Positions 1 to 35,590 of a DNA stretch of 64,000 bases are shown in pieces; the stretch's first letter is position 1, and each line of letters begins with the position of its first letter. The notes beneath the pieces were generated by a model. The model worked only from the letters and a program-made list of their open reading frames with translations. It did not search any database and was not told the DNA's origin. The stretch comes from Micromonospora echinaurantiaca (GTDB lineage Bacteria > Actinomycetota > Actinomycetes > Mycobacteriales > Micromonosporaceae), in contig NZ_LT607750.1 of the NCBI RefSeq assembly GCF_900090235.1, positions 7,139,134 to 7,203,133 of the forward strand. The letters run 5' to 3'. Both the position numbers and the translations under genes were made by a program.

Positions 1-1
1 C

Positions 2-1285
2 GGCACGCTGACCGCCGCCTGCCTGCTACTGCTGGCCGGGGTGGCCGGCAAGAGCGCGCAGTTCCCGCTGCACACCTGGCTGCCGGACGCGATGGCCGGC
101 CCGACCCCGATCTCCGCGCTGATCCACGCCGCGACCATGGTCGCCGCCGGGGTGTACGCGGTCACTCGGCTCTACCCGCTCTTCGAACGCGCGCCGGTCG
201 CGCTGGCGGTGCTCGGGGTGATGGCCGTGGTGACCCTGCTGCTCGGCGCGCTCGCCGCCACCGCCCAGGACGACCTCAAACGGGTGCTGGCCTGGTCGAC
301 GGTCTCCCAGATCGGCTACATGACCGGTGCGCTGGCGGTCGGCGCGCCCGCCGCGGCGCTGTTCCACCTGCTCACCCACGCCGCGTTCAAGGCGCTGCTG
401 TTCCTCGCCGCTGGTGCGGTGATCCACGCGGTCGGCACCACGCTGATGTCGCGGATGGGCGGCCTGCGGCGGGGCATGCCGGTGACCTTCTGGTGCACGG
501 TGGTCGGTCTCGGCGCGCTGGCCGGGCTGCCGCCGCTGCCCGGTTTCTGGAGCAAGGACGGCGTGCTCGCCGCCGCCCAGGAGGCCGCCCTGCACGACGC
601 CGGCCCGGCCGCGTCCTGGGTGGGCTGGCTGGTCTGGCTGGCCGGCCTGGCCGGCGTCGCGATCACCGCCTGGTACGCCACCCGACTGCTGCTGCGCACG
701 TTCTTCGGCGAGGCGCGCACCCCGCTCGTCCAGCCGCACGACCCGCCCGCCGTGATGCGCTGGCCGGTGCTGCTGCTCGCCGTCCCGGCCGCGCTGCTCG
801 GGCTGGCCGGGTTCGCCGGCCCGTTCACCGACCTGCTGCGGCCGGTGGCAGCGGCCACCCCGGAGCGGCCGTCGGATTTGCTGCCGTCGGCGCCGCTGGC
901 CCACCTCGGCCCGGGGGTGCTGCTGCCGCTCGCCCTGCTGACGATCGGGGCGGGGCTCGCCTGGGCCCGCTGGCGGCGCGACCCGGCCGGTGATCCGGCC
1001 ACCACGCTGGGCCGGCTGCGGCCGGTGTTCGCCCGCGCGTTCCGGCTCGACGACGTCCAGCACGCCCTGGTCGTACGCCCCACCGGCGCGCTGGCGAGCG
1101 GCGTGCGTACCGCCGACGAGGTGGTGGTGGACGGCGCGGTCACCGGCAGCGGCCGGGCCGCGGTCGGGCTCGGCGGCGGGCTGGCGGCGCTGCACCGGGC
1201 GGCGCTGCCCCGCGCGGCGGCCGGGGTGCTGGCCGGCGCCCTGCTGATCGGCCTGGCCGCCGCCCTGATCGGAGTCGCGGCATGA
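2..1285 (+). CDS. nuoL: NADH-quinone oxidoreductase subunit L, C-terminal part (5' end outside window)
   Basis: Distal part of the NuoL/ND5 subunit, the outermost antiporter-like proton-pumping subunit in the membrane arm of respiratory complex I. The frame is open at the left edge, so the start and first helices are missing; 427 codons remain. The antiporter hallmark GKSAQFPLHTWLPDAM, with its conserved lysine, and the helix DLKRVLAWSTVSQIGYM are visible, followed by further hydrophobic helices, as expected for this family. The order L, M, N is the canonical end of the nuo operon. The TGA stop overlaps the ATG of an 80-bp repeat unit, so coupling to nuoM runs through the repeats. Confidence 0.97.
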   Translation, partial: GTLTAACLLLLAGVAGKSAQFPLHTWLPDAMAGPTPISALIHAATMVAAGVYAVTRLYPLFERAPVALAVLGVMAVVTLLLGALAATAQDDLKRVLAWSTVSQIGYMTGALAVGAPAAALFHLLTHAAFKALLFLAAGAVIHAVGTTLMSRMGGLRRGMPVTFWCTVVGLGALAGLPPLPGFWSKDGVLAAAQEAALHDAGPAASWVGWLVWLAGLAGVAITAWYATRLLLRTFFGEARTPLVQPHDPPAVMRWPVLLLAVPAALLGLAGFAGPFTDLLRPVAAATPERPSDLLPSAPLAHLGPGVLLPLALLTIGAGLAWARWRRDPAGDPATTLGRLRPVFARAFRLDDVQHALVVRPTGALASGVRTADEVVVDGAVTGSGRAAVGLGGGLAALHRAALPRAAAGVLAGALLIGLAAALIGVAA

Positions 1286-1441
1286 GCGAGCGCAGCGAGC
1301 GAATCATCGGGCTCAGCGCGAAGGTGCCTCATGGCGGCGCGGAGCGAAGCGGAGTGCCGGCATGAGCGAGCGCAGCGAGCGAATCATCGGGCTCAGCGCG
1401 AAGGTGCCTCATGGCGGCGCGGAGCGAAGCGGAGTGCCGGC
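1282..1441 (+). repeat. Two 80-bp tandem repeats at the nuoL/nuoM junction, each a 27-codon coupled mini-ORF
   Basis: Two identical 80-bp units (1282-1361 and 1362-1441) fill the gap between nuoL and nuoM. Each begins ATGAGCGAGCGCAGCGAGCG and encodes 27 residues (starting MSERSERII) plus a TGA that overlaps the next ATG as ATGA. Mini-ORFs therefore run 1282-1365 and 1362-1445, and the chain nuoL, mini-ORF, mini-ORF, nuoM is linked by ATGA overlaps throughout. The 3' end of each unit carries GGAG 7 nt before the following ATG, so each unit supplies a Shine-Dalgarno sequence. A related array lies before nuoN. Whether the peptides are made or matter is unknown. Confidence 0.9.
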
Positions 1442-2943
<1,502 letters not shown>

Positions 2944-2947
<4 letters not shown>

Positions 2948-3184
2948 GCGAGCGCCAGCGAGCGAATCATCAGGCTCGGTGCGGTGGTGTCTCAGGGCGG
3001 CACGCAGCGGAGCGGAGTGCCGGCATGAGCGAGCGGAGCGAGCGAATCATCAGGCTCAGCGTGGAGGTGTCTCAGGGCGGCACGCAGCGGAGCGGAGTGC
3101 CGGCATGAGCGAGCGGAGCGAGCGAATCATCAGGCTCAGCGTGGAGGTGCCTCAGGGCGGCACGCAGCGGAGCGGAGTGCCGGC
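2944..3184 (+). repeat. Three tandem repeats (81+80+80 bp) at the nuoM/nuoN junction
   Basis: Three units (2944-3024, 3025-3104, 3105-3184) related to the nuoL/nuoM repeats but with their own shared substitutions. Units 2 and 3 differ by one base. Unit 1 has one extra base (GCGCCAGCG), making it 81 bp and therefore in frame with unit 2, so the ORF starting at the ATGA overlap with nuoM runs through both units to the stop at 3106-3108. That stop overlaps the ATG of unit 3 (3105), whose stop overlaps nuoN's ATG (3185). The stop-start chain is thus intact despite the indel. GGAG sits 7 nt before each internal ATG and before nuoN. Confidence 0.9.
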
Positions 3185-4714
3185 ATGAGCGTGGTGCAGA
3201 GCGTCGACAGCGTGGCGCTGCTGCCGGCGTACCTGGCCGCCGGCACTGCCGTCCTGGTGCTGGTCACCGACCTGGTGCTGGCCCGGCCGCGGGCCACCGT
3301 CGCGGCGGGCGCGCTCGGCGCGGCCGCCACCGCGCTCGGCGCGGCGCTGGTCGGCGCCGGCGGCGAGCGGCGGACGTTCTGCGTCGGCGCGGACTGCTCG
3401 TACGTCTTCGGCGGCCGGGCCGCGCTGGTCGGCGCCGTCGTCGCCCTGCTCACCCTCGGCGTGCTGGCGCTGTCCGGACCGGCGCTGCGGGCCGGGCAGT
3501 CGCCGGTGGGGGAGTACGCCTTCCTGCTGGCCTGTTCGATGACCGGTGGTGTGGTGCTCGGCGCGGCCGGCGACCTGATCACGCTGATCGTGGCGCTGGA
3601 GACGCTCACCCTGCCGCTCTACGTCCTGGTCGGGCTGCGCCGGGGCAGCCTGGCCAGCGCCGAGGCGGCGGTCACGTTCTTCGTGGTGAGCGTGGTCGCC
3701 ACCACCCTGACGCTGCTCGGCGCCGCGCTGCTCTACGCGGCCACCGGCGCGCTGCACCTGGGTCGGCTCGGCGCGCTCTTCGCCGACCGGCCGGAGCTGC
3801 TCGACCTGCCGTTGACCGGAGTCGCCGTCGCCCTGGTGGTGCTCGGCCTGGCGTTCAAGGTGGCGGCGGTGCCGTTCCACGCCTGGGCGCCGGCCACCTA
3901 CGACGGCGCGCCGCTGCCGGTGGCTGCCTACCTCTCCACCGCCTCGAAGCTGGGCGGGGTGGTGGCCCTGCTCGCCGTGGTGCAGTACGCGCTGCCGGCC
4001 GAGGTGACCGGCCCGGTGCTCGCCCTGCTCGCGGTGTTGACGATGACCGTCGGCAACCTGGTGGCGCTGCGCCAGCGGCGTACCGTCCGGCTGCTCGCCT
4101 GGTCCTCGGTGGCCCAGGCCGGCTACATCCTCGCTCCGCTCGGCGCGCTGGCGCTGGCGGCCGGCCGCACCGGTGACGCCCGCACCGCCGCCTACGCGGC
4201 CGCCGTGGCGTACGCCGTCTTCTTCGTGGTGCTGGAACTGGCCGCGTTCGCCGGGGTGGTGGCGCTGCGCCCGGCCGGCGCGGACGGCGGCAGCCTCGAC
4301 GAGCTGCGCGGCGCGGCCCGCCGCCACCCGTGGCGGGCGGCGGCGTTCGGCCTGGCGCTGATCGGGCTGGCCGGCCTGCCACCCGGCCTGGCCGGACTCT
4401 TCGCCAAGGTGACGGTGGTCCGGGCGCTGCTGGACGGCGCCGCCGGCTGGCTGGCCCTGGTGGTGGCGGTCAACGCGGTCGTCGGCCTCGCCTACTACCT
4501 GCGGCTCACCGCCGCCCTCTACGCCGCGCCCGCCGCCGCTCCGCCGGCCACCACACCAGCCGCTGGCGCCACACCGGCCACCGCACCGGCCGGTCCGTCG
4601 ACCCGCGGGGTCGTGCCGGCCGGCGCGGTCGTCGTGGTGCTGGCGGTGGTCACCGCGGTCGCCCTGGTCATCGGCTTCGCTCCGCAGCTCGTGCTCGATC
4701 TCGCCGCCCGCTGA
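3185..4714 (+). CDS. nuoN: NADH-quinone oxidoreductase subunit N
   Basis: Third antiporter-like membrane subunit of complex I (ND2 family), 509 aa. Conserved charged residues are E139 in LIVALETLTLPLY and K225 in LAFKVAAVPFHAWAPATYDG. A low-complexity Ala/Pro/Thr stretch near residues 448-475 separates the last helices, a common variable loop. ATG 3185 directly follows the third repeat unit and overlaps its stop codon. It is the last nuo gene; the next gene is 117 bp downstream and unrelated. Confidence 0.97.
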   Translation: MSVVQSVDSVALLPAYLAAGTAVLVLVTDLVLARPRATVAAGALGAAATALGAALVGAGGERRTFCVGADCSYVFGGRAALVGAVVALLTLGVLALSGPALRAGQSPVGEYAFLLACSMTGGVVLGAAGDLITLIVALETLTLPLYVLVGLRRGSLASAEAAVTFFVVSVVATTLTLLGAALLYAATGALHLGRLGALFADRPELLDLPLTGVAVALVVLGLAFKVAAVPFHAWAPATYDGAPLPVAAYLSTASKLGGVVALLAVVQYALPAEVTGPVLALLAVLTMTVGNLVALRQRRTVRLLAWSSVAQAGYILAPLGALALAAGRTGDARTAAYAAAVAYAVFFVVLELAAFAGVVALRPAGADGGSLDELRGAARRHPWRAAAFGLALIGLAGLPPGLAGLFAKVTVVRALLDGAAGWLALVVAVNAVVGLAYYLRLTAALYAAPAAAPPATTPAAGATPATAPAGPSTRGVVPAGAVVVVLAVVTAVALVIGFAPQLVLDLAAR

Positions 4715-4831
4715 GCCGGGCGCGTGGTCGCGCTCCCAGGCAACTCACAGCCATACGACGGATGGTTGACGGGTACCGGGTTGTTGAACCGGTCAGCGGA
4801 TCCTCGCGATCCGTGCACCGAAGGAGCGAAC

Positions 4832-5707
4832 GTGCATCACAACCGTCTGAAGACCGCCGCGCTGCTCGGCCTGCTCACCTCGCTGATCCTGGCGGTGGGC
4901 TACTGGTTCGGCGGCAGTGGTGGACTCGTCATCGCCGTCGTCGTGTCCCTGCTGATGAACGGCTTCACCTACTTCTACTCCGACAAGCTGGCACTGCGCT
5001 CGATGCGGGCGCAACCGGTCACCGAGGCACAGTTCCCCGAGCTGTACCGGATGGTCCGCGAGCTGGCCACCGAGGCCCGGCAGCCGATGCCGCGGCTCTA
5101 CGTGAGCCCGACGTCGCAGCCGAACGCGTTCGCCACCGGGCGCAACCCGCAGAACGCGGCGGTCTGCGTGACCCAGGGGATCACCGAGATCCTCGACTAC
5201 CGCGAGCTGCGCGGCGTGATCGGCCACGAGCTGTCGCACGTCTACAACCGGGACATCCTCATCTCCAGCGTGGCCGCCGGCCTGGCCGGCATCATCACCA
5301 CGCTGGCGAACATCGCCTGGTTCATCCCGCTCGGCGGCGGGGACGACGAGGACTCGCCGAACCCGGCCGTGCTGCTGCTCACCATCATCCTGGGCCCGAT
5401 CGCCGCGACGGTCATCCAGTTGGCCATCAGCCGGAGCCGGGAGTTCCAGGCGGACGCCTCCGGCGCCCAGCTGACCCGGGACCCGCTGGCCCTGGCGAGC
5501 GCGCTGCGGAAGATCCACATGGGTACCCAGCGCCGGCCGCTGCCGGCTCAGGGGCAGCTCACCAGCACCGCGCACCTGATGATCGACAACCCGTTCCGGG
5601 GTGGCGGCGTGGCGGCGCTCTTCTCCACCCACCCGCGGATGGAGGAGCGGGTCGCCCGGCTGGAGCGGATGGCCGCCAGCGCCGGCCCGGTCCAGTTCGA
5701 GCGCTGA
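4832..5707 (+). CDS. htpX: HtpX-type membrane zinc metalloprotease
   Basis: Member of the M48B family, integral membrane proteases that degrade damaged membrane proteins; 291 aa, the usual length. Two N-terminal helices (about 9-26 and 31-46) are followed by the zinc motif HELSH at 132-136 inside [14 protein letters not shown], two more helices, and a third ligand region [14 protein letters not shown] 4832 was chosen because GGAG lies 6 nt upstream and [15 protein letters not shown] matches the usual HtpX N-terminus; the ATG-proximal extension from 4724 looks non-coding. A strong hairpin follows the stop. Confidence 0.92.
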
Positions 5708-5720
5708 CCTGAGCATCGCC

Positions 5721-5760
5721 GGCTCCGCCCGTACCCGGACTCCCGGGTGCGGGCGGAGCC
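5721..5760 (+). terminator. Rho-independent-type hairpin after htpX
   Basis: Perfect inverted repeat GGCTCCGCCCG / CGGGCGGAGCC with an 18-nt loop that itself contains CCCGG/CCGGG pairing. There is no T-run, as is usual for high-GC actinobacteria. It lies 13 nt after the htpX stop. Confidence 0.75.
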
Positions 5761-5852
5761 GTGTGTACGGGCACAAACCGTTTCTCCGCCGGGCGACCGA
5801 GCGTTAGGGTCAAAACGTCTTCCACTCATTACACCCGTCATGGAGGTCGATC

Positions 5853-7112
5853 GTGGCCGCACTGCGCCAGTACCTGGGCGTCTGGCGGGTCCCCGGAGCG
5901 CCGATGCTGCTGGTCACCGGCATCGTCGGCCGGCTCGGGATCGGCATGACGCCGCTGGCGCTGCTGCTCGTGGTCGAGCAGGTGACCGGGGGATACTCGC
6001 TCGCCGCGGTCGCCGGCGGCATCTACGCCCTCTCCGGCGCCGCGCTCAGCCCGGTCGCCGGGCGGATCGCCGACCGGGTCGGCCCCACTCCGGTGCTGCT
6101 CGGCACCGCTGTCGCCCACCCACTCGCCCTGCTCGGCCTGCTCGGCGCGGCCCGCCCCGGCAGCGGCAACCTGGCGCTGATCTTCCTGGCCGCCGGGGTG
6201 GCCGGAGCCACCTACCCGCCGCTGACCGCCGCGATCCGGGGCGCCTGGAACGACCTGACCGCTCCCGCCACCGGCCGGCACCACCTGCGCAACACCGCGC
6301 TGGCCGCGGAGACCACCCTGTTCGAGATCGTCTTCGTGCTCGGCCCGCTGCTGGTGGCCGGTTTCGTGCTGGTCGCCGACGCCCGGGCCGCGCTGGTCGG
6401 CTCGGCCGTGGTGACCCTCGTCGGCACCACCGCGGTGGCGCTCGGCCGGGTGATGCGCGGCTGGCGTCCGCACCCGCACGAAAACCGGGCCCGCGGGCTG
6501 GGTCCGCTGCGGGTCGCCGGTTTCCCGGCGCTGCTGCTCTGCGTGGCCAGCCTGGGCATCGCCTTCGGCGCGGCCGGTGTGATCGTGCCGGCATTCGCCA
6601 CCGACTACACCGCCGACGACCCGGACAGCCTCGCCGGCGTGCTGCTCGCCGTCTGGGGGATCGGCAGCGCCGCCGGCGGCTTCTGGTTCGGCGTCCGCCG
6701 GCCGTCGCCCAACATGACCCGGCAGTTCGCCTGGCTGCTCGGCGCGGTGGCGGCCAGCTTCGCCGTCTTCGCGCTGATGCCCACCCCGGCCGCGCTGGGC
6801 GCCGCGCTGGTGATCGGTGGCGCCACCATCGCGCCCGCGCTCACCCTGGAGAACACCCTGGTCGGCCGGATCTCGCCGGTCAGCATGCTGAACGAGGCGT
6901 ACACCTGGGTGGTCACCATGTCGGTCGGGGCGAGCGCGGCCGGCGGCGCGGTCGCCGGGCTGATCGTCGACCACGCCGGCGGGGTGCCCTGGGCGTTCCT
7001 CTTCGCCGGGGCCGCGGTCGCCGTCGGGGCCGCGGTCGCCGCGCTGCCCGCCGGCCCCATCGCCCGCGCGGAGGCGGCGACGGTACGCGTCGACGAGCCC
7101 GTCCCGGCCTGA
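5853..7112 (+). CDS. MFS transporter
   Basis: Major facilitator superfamily membrane transporter, 419 aa, about 12 predicted helices with a central cytoplasmic loop around residues 195-215 ([14 protein letters not shown]). The first cytoplasmic loop motif is [14 protein letters not shown], the MFS motif A. GTG 5853 is preceded by GGAGG at 5842. Substrate cannot be deduced. It is monocistronic or followed by the tiny gene at 7155; no regulator is adjacent. Confidence 0.85.
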
Positions 7113-34660: not shown

Positions 34661-35590
34661 GTGACGGATCCGGCGCGCCCCACGGGCGGTGACCCCGGGC
34701 AGCCCGCGTCTCCGGCGTCCCCCGCGTCTCCGGCGTCCCCGACGTCCGGTCCGTCCGAGTCGCGGGTCGGGGGACCGGGGGTGGCGCAGTCCGCAGCCGA
34801 GGGGGCCGGCAACCGGTCCGACCAGCCTCCCGCGAGCCCCTGGGGATCCCCGTCGGGCCAGCCGCCGGCGAGCCCGTGGAGTGCCTCGCCCAGCCAGGCG
34901 TCCGGAAACTCCTGGGGGGTGCCGTCCGGCCAGCCAGCAGCCAGCCCGTGGAGTGCTCCCCACGGTCAGCCGTCCGGGAGCCCGCCGGGCCACCAGCCGG
35001 CGAATCCGTGGGGAGCGCCGTCGGGCCAGCCGCCGGCGCACCCGTCGGGGCAGCCTGCGGTGGGTCCGTGGGGTGGCCCGGCCGGCCAGCCGGCGGGGGG
35101 CCAGCCGGCGCCGGGTGCGTGGGGGCCGCCCGCGCCCGGCTGGGGTGGGCCCCCGCCCGGCGGACCGGGGCTGCCCCCGCCACCCCGGGAGACGGCCCGC
35201 CCGAGCCGGGTAGACCCGGTGCCCGGTACGCCGTTCGCCGTGGTGCACCTCGACGTGCCGCCGGTCACCTCGGGCCTGGCGGTGGGCTCGCTGGTGGCCG
35301 GGGTGGCCGCGATCCTGGTCTCGGTGCTGGTCTTCTGCTTCGGGGCGACCGGGGCGTCCGCCGGCGGCGTCTGGGCCGCTGGCGCGTTCACCGTGCTGGG
35401 CGTGCTGGCCGGGGCCGGCGCCGTGGTGGCCGGCCTGCTCGCCCGGCGGCAGATCCGCCGCCCGGCGCCGCCGCCCGGGGTCCGGTTCACCGGTCGGGGC
35501 CTGGCCGTGGCGGGGATCAGCTGCGGCGGGGCGGGGCTGGGGCTCAGCCTGCTCGGGTTGGCGCTGGCGGTGCTGCTCTCGCTGAGCTGA
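34661..35590 (+). CDS. Proline/glycine-rich repeat membrane protein
   Basis: 309 aa. The first ~190 residues are low complexity, built from variable copies of PSGQPPASPW-like units (Pro, Ser, Gly, Gln, Trp). The last ~110 residues hold three hydrophobic helices (about 203-225, 232-256, 283-307) with an RRQIRRPAPPPG loop. GGAGGAG precedes GTG 34661; TAGCCT at 34603 may be the -10. The layout (disordered proline tail, then a small membrane domain) is common in actinobacteria; function unknown. Confidence 0.65.
   Translation: MTDPARPTGGDPGQPASPASPASPASPTSGPSESRVGGPGVAQSAAEGAGNRSDQPPASPWGSPSGQPPASPWSASPSQASGNSWGVPSGQPAASPWSAPHGQPSGSPPGHQPANPWGAPSGQPPAHPSGQPAVGPWGGPAGQPAGGQPAPGAWGPPAPGWGGPPPGGPGLPPPPRETARPSRVDPVPGTPFAVVHLDVPPVTSGLAVGSLVAGVAAILVSVLVFCFGATGASAGGVWAAGAFTVLGVLAGAGAVVAGLLARRQIRRPAPPPGVRFTGRGLAVAGISCGGAGLGLSLLGLALAVLLSLS

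Follow-up and report, generated by a model that had tools for sequence, protein, structure and literature searches.

Mycobacterial interspersed repetitive units (MIRUs) are oriented like the genes adjacent to them and are not known to have dyad symmetry, and REP/BIME and MITE-type repeats are small, non-autonomous, dispersed, and partly palindromic. A passage of a 2025 review, citing Supply et al., 1997, places MIRUs at start codons, with an internal open reading frame (ORF) that overlaps the neighboring gene by 4 nt and with a minimal effect on expression expected; on this account, a mode of existence at start codons is already known for a repeat element. Between senX3 and regX3, where identical 77-bp units stand in tandem with length variants, the gap of two M. 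tuberculosis strains holds either three 77-bp units or two 77-bp units and one 53-bp unit; one paper restricts MIRUs at this position to M. leprae and the M. tuberculosis complex. The enterobacterial RU elements are presented, in the title of a paper (PMC2759123), as small mobile sequences carrying ORFs, and its abstract compares them to MITEs.

Here, we describe two families of short repeats, A and B, which we followed from the window, a 64,000-nucleotide stretch of Micromonospora echinaurantiaca DNA, into the rest of its genome and those of its relatives. Family A resembles MIRUs in four ways: its short direct repeats are dispersed at start codons, single or in tandem; ORF and gene overlap by 4 nt (39 of 40 arrays in the window's own genome form such a chain, 34 of them with the gene met at the array end); orientation is sense (39 of 40 arrays, the best downstream frame of the 40th also being sense); and MIRU lengths of 77 and 53 bp leave a remainder of 2 when divided by 3, as do 80 and 71 bp in family A and 59 bp in family B. 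As far as a comparison of descriptions rather than of sequences allows, the two families differ from MIRUs in their lengths, in being hosted by Micromonosporaceae and not mycobacteria, in a hairpin that is predicted, with paired changes, toward the right end of the family-A unit, in the sharing of junctions by A and B, and in the occurrence of lengths that fuse in frame. They are small, non-autonomous, dispersed, and partly palindromic, as are REP/BIME and MITE-type repeats, but they lie at start codons, in the sense orientation only, under a frame rule, and inspection of the unit ends by eye shows no evident terminal inverted repeats. With RU elements, they have in common that they are small, probably mobile sequences with ORFs; stop-start coupling is not mentioned in the title or the opening of the abstract on RU (PMC2759123). 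An initial annotation of the window had known of no described mechanism for such an arrangement, a statement that finds no support in the 2025 review, whose passage on MIRUs, citing Supply et al., 1997, uses just these terms. Searches of an open-access library listed no paper describing either family in Micromonospora or other actinomycetes. Added here are the sequence family, its host family, the hairpin, a second family at the same junctions, the fused lengths, and the duplication associated with family B.

Results

Tandem units at two nuo junctions

Two 80-bp units of identical sequence lie head to tail between nuoL and nuoM (TRF over 1270-1447: period 80, 97% matches), each with a mini-ORF of 27 aa, MSERSERIIGLSAKVPHGGAERSGVPA, whose TGA overlaps the ATG that follows. 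The features of the region are:

1..1285, + strand: nuoL, 3' part, with a TGA stop at 1283-1285 that overlaps the ATG of the first mini-ORF
1271..1274, + strand: GGAG within nuoL, a likely Shine-Dalgarno sequence, separated by 7 nt from the ATG at 1282
1282..1361, + strand: family-A unit 1, 80 bp, with mini-ORF 1282-1365
1335..1359, + strand: hairpin SL2 as predicted in unit 1, with arms at 1335-1340 and 1354-1359, just 5' of the next ATG
1351..1354, + strand: GGAG of unit 1, with the ATG of unit 2 following after 7 nt
1362..1441, + strand: family-A unit 2, 80 bp, identical to unit 1, with mini-ORF 1362-1445
1415-1439, + strand: predicted hairpin SL2 of unit 2, in the place equivalent to that in unit 1
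1431-1434, + strand: GGAG of unit 2, 7 nt before the ATG of nuoM
1442..2947, + strand: nuoM (TIGR01972, above cut-off)
2944..3024, + strand: 81-bp family-A unit, reading in frame into the unit after it, with mini-ORF 2944-3108
3025..3104, + strand: family-A unit, 80 bp
3105..3184, + strand: family-A unit, 80 bp, with mini-ORF 3105-3188
3185..4714, + strand: nuoN (fitted best by TIGR01770 at E = 1.9e-82, without reaching its cut-off)

The nuoL fragment is best fitted by models of NADH-quinone oxidoreductase subunit L, whose cut-offs it does not reach, probably owing to its truncation at the edge of the window. Everything that the initial annotation had reported of the nuoL/nuoM junction, namely the two identical units, the 27-aa mini-ORFs, the TGA/ATG overlaps, and the 7-nt spacing of GGAG, is confirmed, and the phenomenon proves larger than it had claimed. 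A second array, absent from that annotation, occupies nuoM/nuoN (2944-3184, units of 81, 80, and 80 bp); since its 81-bp unit is in frame with the next, the chain there consists of one 54-aa and one 27-aa mini-ORF. An 84-base query has 66 matches in the 7.2-Mb single-contig genome, the best beyond the window's two copies being 96% identical (E = 8.7e-34), and these genome-wide matches exclude chance as the origin of the nuoL/nuoM repeat. No Rfam match was obtained for window positions 1-6000 at E <= 1. Elsewhere in the window, short tandem repeats cluster at 34703-35161; they are imperfect, and their periods range from 9 to 60 bp.

Placement at start codons throughout the genome

The 66 matches form 40 arrays, all in the sense orientation (62 matches were used for the layout; the other four are short end fragments adjoining included arrays). 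Following ORFs from the left RTGA through successive 4-nt stop-start overlaps leads to a sense gene in 39 arrays (a gene being a frame with GC3 > 0.85 that has 90 codons or more or stays open up to the end of the stretch), and in 34 the gene is met exactly at the BLAST-defined array end; the 40th array lacks a left RTGA, and its best downstream coding frame is still sense. Base composition gives a similar picture: the frame of best GC3 downstream begins at the right RTG in 37 of the 39 arrays that have a right edge, and, of the 39 arrays that have a left edge, 30 have their best upstream frame stop at the left TGA, some left edges being possibly a few bases off (e.g., 4618916). This second test counted 41 arrays, which become 40 when the two halves of one unit are merged. 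The layout thus keeps stop-start coupling, with the Shine-Dalgarno sequence and start at the right end of the unit, as had been proposed from the window alone, and the expected preference for ATGA or GTGA starts and for one orientation holds genome-wide, the exceptions in placement being this one family-A array and four family-B arrays without a left RTGA, two of which are remnants away from starts.

In family A of this genome, the R bases of the left and right RTGA show no significant agreement (Fisher p = 0.56). Outside gene interiors, the window contains 33 RTGAGC sites, of which 12 either lie at a start or overlap the stop of a called gene and 21 are in other non-coding DNA, as counted with rough gene calls (coding fraction 0.78); with 21 of 33 sites away from starts, insertion at any tolerated RTGAGC alone would not yield the observed placement. 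At one locus (L066, 1578-1736), about 75 bp of other sequence interrupts a family-A unit, and a single frame of 155 bp remains.

Occupied and empty junctions, and a predicted hairpin

Whether these junctions are occupied varies among relatives. NuoM is present in 60 of 61 same-genus genomes (the exception, G023, has no match at the limit used). Junction motifs resolved 51 of 58 nuoL/nuoM junctions, of which 25 are empty, 25 carry an exact chain, and one is of another form, the window's own array (80+80) falling among the remaining seven, and 57 of 60 nuoM/nuoN junctions (21 empty, 33 exact chains, and three others, with three remaining). Both junctions together, in about 60 genomes, amount to 46 empty and 62 filled. 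The chain is exact in 58 of the 62 fillings, compared with 13.6 expected for shuffled sequence in random frame and 24.9 after one random deletion of 0-2 bases; the four non-exact fillings still leave a route open, three restarting at TGATG and the fourth being joined in frame to nuoN. Among 23 inserts that contain neither A nor B words, the chain is exact in 21. On a nuoM tree, parsimony requires at least 13 changes between filled and empty at nuoL/nuoM and at least 14 at nuoM/nuoN, gains and losses being indistinguishable; these counts are independent of the labels A, B, and other on the tree, which come from simple word matches by which a few variants are missed. Occupancy is polymorphic. 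In G025, the sister of the window genome on this tree, nuoL/nuoM holds a B-like unit of 56 bp and nuoM/nuoN an A-related insert. In another genome (G044, L083), nuoM/nuoN holds a 173-bp insert unlike A or B, with a long inverted repeat, GTGGAACACCATGGGTG...CACCCATGGCGTTCCAC, and an intact chain.

The last 29 bases of family A contain a predicted hairpin, CGGCAC/GTGCCG, immediately 5' of the next start. Its paired columns (SL2) can be followed across the 62 distinct 80-mers, 58 of which fall into two frame classes (44 in class 1 and 14 in class 2). In the consensus structure of class 1, both members of a pair have changed in 14 cells, and two pairs of this hairpin account for 13 of these; none of 500 column shuffles reaches 14, and the best slid control has 8. 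Class 2 shows four such cells, a count that 12 of 500 shuffles attain. These cells count related sequences rather than events, and kinship can inflate them. The folding energy of the whole unit is ordinary (z about -1).

A hairpin beside a start codon with paired changes is what one might expect of a domesticated regulatory device, an RNA hairpin or attenuator that tunes translation of particular operons, and MIRUs are credited in the literature with driving regX3 expression. We nevertheless regard such a device as unlikely, since 25 of 51 nuoL/nuoM and 21 of 57 nuoM/nuoN junctions do without it, occupancy has changed at least 13 and 14 times, one and the same junction is filled by differing sequences, the both-side changes count related sequences, and folding is energetically unexceptional.

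A second family, host range, and the search for a mobilizer

Family B is a repeat of about 59 bp (VSARSEPGLRAPQSRTE...) that often occupies the nuo junctions of relatives. We looked at 35 arrays in the window's own genome, leaving out five weak matches (E >= 0.0025). A left RTGA is present in 31 of the 35; 29 of these 31 chain to a gene, and in 26 of the 31 the upstream coding frame stops at the left TGA. Two of the four arrays without a left RTGA are decayed remnants not at a start codon (L213, 1543-1581, and L214, 1493-1525), one of them present as two partial copies. About 1.7 kb before the window (G000:C1:7137425; L209, 1526-1562), a degenerate family-B unit leads into a 192-aa ORF.

The bases just upstream of the left RTGA of family B match the last bases of the unit, as a duplication would produce. 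The mean exact run is 1.93 in 41 single copies, compared with 0.63 when shuffled (none of 1,000 shuffles reaches it), in a set where a few rows come from relatives at one junction or have element-like left flanks; the cleaner set of 19 sites from the window's own genome gives 1.84 compared with 0.82 (1 of 5,000 shuffles). The excess is confined to the first four bases or so. Family A shows no such duplication upstream of RTGA at 19 single-copy sites of the same genome (1.32 compared with 1.32). In a larger set of 40 family-A contexts, matching windows are reached by 57 to 310 of 1,000 shuffles, no clear excess, and an excess of exact runs (0 of 1,000) leans partly on two rows with an element-remnant left flank. 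The family-B duplication is the best lead to the mechanism of insertion.

The two families are likely, although not certain, to be independent. The B1 form has no significant likeness to family A (its scores are reached by 286 and 87 of 1,000 shuffles), and the B2 form has a stretch of 12-14 bases in common with it, AGCGCAGCGGAG (15 of 1,000), which could reflect exchange between families or chance.

Family A occurs in 59 of 61 genomes of a genus sample and 74 of 150 genomes (21 of 44 genera) of a family sample. An order sample has it in 59 of 298 genomes, of which 43 are Micromonosporaceae; the matches in the 16 from other families are weaker (best E = 1.8e-10). A phylum sample, at E <= 1e-6, has it in two of 396, both from the same genus. 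Family B is in all 61 genomes of the genus sample and in 45 of 298 of the order sample, all of these Micromonosporaceae. As 14 candidates per genome were scored for A in the genus sample, six in the family sample, three in the order sample for A and for B, and two in the phylum sample, copy numbers are minimum values, and weak relatives can escape. A 37-base family-A pattern matches 14 named genome records, every one of them assigned to Micromonospora or Micromonosporaceae. Plasmids and phages gave no family-A match by blastn at E <= 1e-5, nor did viral contigs contain one exact 26-base pattern.

One conceivable source of mobility is a single-strand transposase of the IS200/IS605 type (Y1), recognizing hairpins as in REP-like systems. 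The hairpin, the RTGA at both ends, and the net gain of one RTGA resemble IS200/605 outcomes, and the window's own genome has one Y1 (IS200-like) transposase gene (L221, around 1507-1872). However, Y1 matches are present in 18 of the 61 genomes (many of them drafts) compared with 59 for family A, and two single-contig carriers, G041 (16 A matches) and G036 (14 A matches), have none; the 1.3 kb around the Y1 gene of the window's genome shows no A-like ends by eye; and the duplicated bases of family B, upstream of RTGA, are unlike an IS605 insertion. We rejected the resident Y1 transposase as a general mobilizer because most carrier genomes lack a Y1 match, and consider mobilization of this kind improbable. 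No other mobility enzyme emerged from the analysis.

A length rule and an open frame

Family A obeys a length rule: in 82 of 83 distinct contexts from all fetched loci, the spacing from RTGA to RTGA (80, 71, 74, or 83 bp) leaves a remainder of 2 when divided by 3, the exception being 81 bp. The rule rests on this frame-blind spacing because the chain test makes units 2 mod 3 by construction. In family B, 104 of 128 contexts are 2 mod 3, 23 are 0 mod 3 and thus fused in frame, and one is 1 mod 3. In both counts, the choice of RTGA favors the usual length, being the one nearest the BLAST edge for family A or nearest to 59 bases for family B. The rule anticipated from the window's two units is supported, with in-frame fusion as a second outcome in B.

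The frame is also kept free of stops. None of the 58 distinct 80-mers in the two family-A classes has an in-frame stop; another frame is stopped in 16 of 44 (class 1) and three of 14 (class 2), and the remaining one by the built-in TGA. Among 80 distinct family-B 59-mers, none has an in-frame stop, and the other frames have them in 13 and 55. Mean entropies in bits at codon positions 1, 2, and 3 are 0.362, 0.402, and 0.336 for class 1; 0.292, 0.422, and 0.411 for class 2; and 0.754, 0.640, and 0.597 for family B. In none of the three sets does position 3 vary most, and so the frame rather than the peptide seems to be conserved. Class 2 has an extra base early and one fewer later, a +1 shift and back that turns SERSERII into SERQRANH and keeps the length at 80 bp. 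As judged from these patterns, frame and openness appear to be kept and the peptide not.

An open frame in 58 of 58 distinct 80-mers of the two main classes, with 27-aa products that are alike, might also be read as copies of a small gene whose peptide is functional. We set this idea aside on the codon-position entropy, and it is very unlikely in any case: position 3 is not the most variable in A class 1, A class 2, or B; one whole subfamily shifts its frame and returns at constant length; the mini-ORF product matches no Pfam family; and relatives are often without copies at a given site.

Local amplification

The largest family-A array has nine copies. Neighboring units (16 pairs) have a mean identity of 99.1%, with 11 pairs identical, compared with 78.2% between loci, where single pairs reach 98.8%. 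With 66 matches in 40 arrays, the initial description of a dispersed and locally amplified cassette is borne out. In G036 (L124), the nuoL/nuoM junction has a repeat of about 45 bp made up of nuoL-end-like sequence and ATGAGC, and cassettes may thus arise by tandem duplication across a junction. Plain tandem duplication of the local junction sequence (minisatellite slippage) is likely to be the mode of local amplification, given the identical neighbors, the nine-copy array, and the repeat in G036, but as a full account without dispersal it is contradicted and scarcely credible, because one unit family makes up 40 arrays in one genome, is up to 98.8% identical between loci, and is found in 59 of 61 same-genus genomes.

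Discussion

We consider it highly probable, from the sequence patterns, that both families are small non-autonomous elements, mobile now or in the past, that settle on RTGA starts and preserve termination-reinitiation. Because a unit carries a stop, a start, and a Shine-Dalgarno sequence, the termination-reinitiation of genes that depend on a neighbor would probably survive its arrival. The initial annotation had called the cassette "mobile or amplifiable": local amplification and differences in presence between relatives are both seen, and mobility, past or present, is probable. As no target duplication was found for family A, we infer its insertion from the empty and filled sites.

The following course of events would account for the layout. 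A family-A unit would settle on an RTGA start, usually one where the upstream stop overlaps the downstream start, and would supply a left start codon, a stop-free frame, a Shine-Dalgarno sequence, and a new stop-start RTGA on its right. At nuoL/nuoM, a ribosome that ends nuoL would restart on the first mini-ORF by means of nuoL's own GGAG, stop 27 codons on at the next ATGA, and pass by way of the unit's GGAG to the second mini-ORF and then to nuoM. The original Shine-Dalgarno sequence would thereby come to serve the mini-ORF, and the element's own would serve the gene. The hairpin before the right-hand start may hold the unit's Shine-Dalgarno sequence closed until the mini-ORF has been translated. 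Such an element would be nearly neutral for the operon and could spread, with local multiplication in tandem afterward. Units of 0 mod 3 would become in-frame N-terminal extensions of the gene, and old units may dwindle to short, frame-preserving linkers.

A wider proposal is more tentative, and we put it forward as a possibility somewhat short of an even prospect: that start codons are a general safe harbor for small mobile DNA in actinobacteria, that at least three families (MIRUs, A, and B) have independently evolved landing on RTGA together with a stop, a start, a frame, and a Shine-Dalgarno sequence, and that the enzyme involved reads the context of translation starts, leaving in the case of family B a duplication of about 4-6 bases upstream of RTGA.

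For the annotation of Micromonospora genomes, N-termini of the MSERSER and VSARSE types, and very small ORFs, are probably derived from these elements. Naturally empty and filled junctions in about 60 genomes allow direct tests of three things: the effect of termination-reinitiation, the length rule, and how insertion proceeds. The occurrence of two families in one genus, at dozens of places that include the genes of respiratory complex I, suggests that the strategy known from MIRUs is not a mycobacterial oddity.
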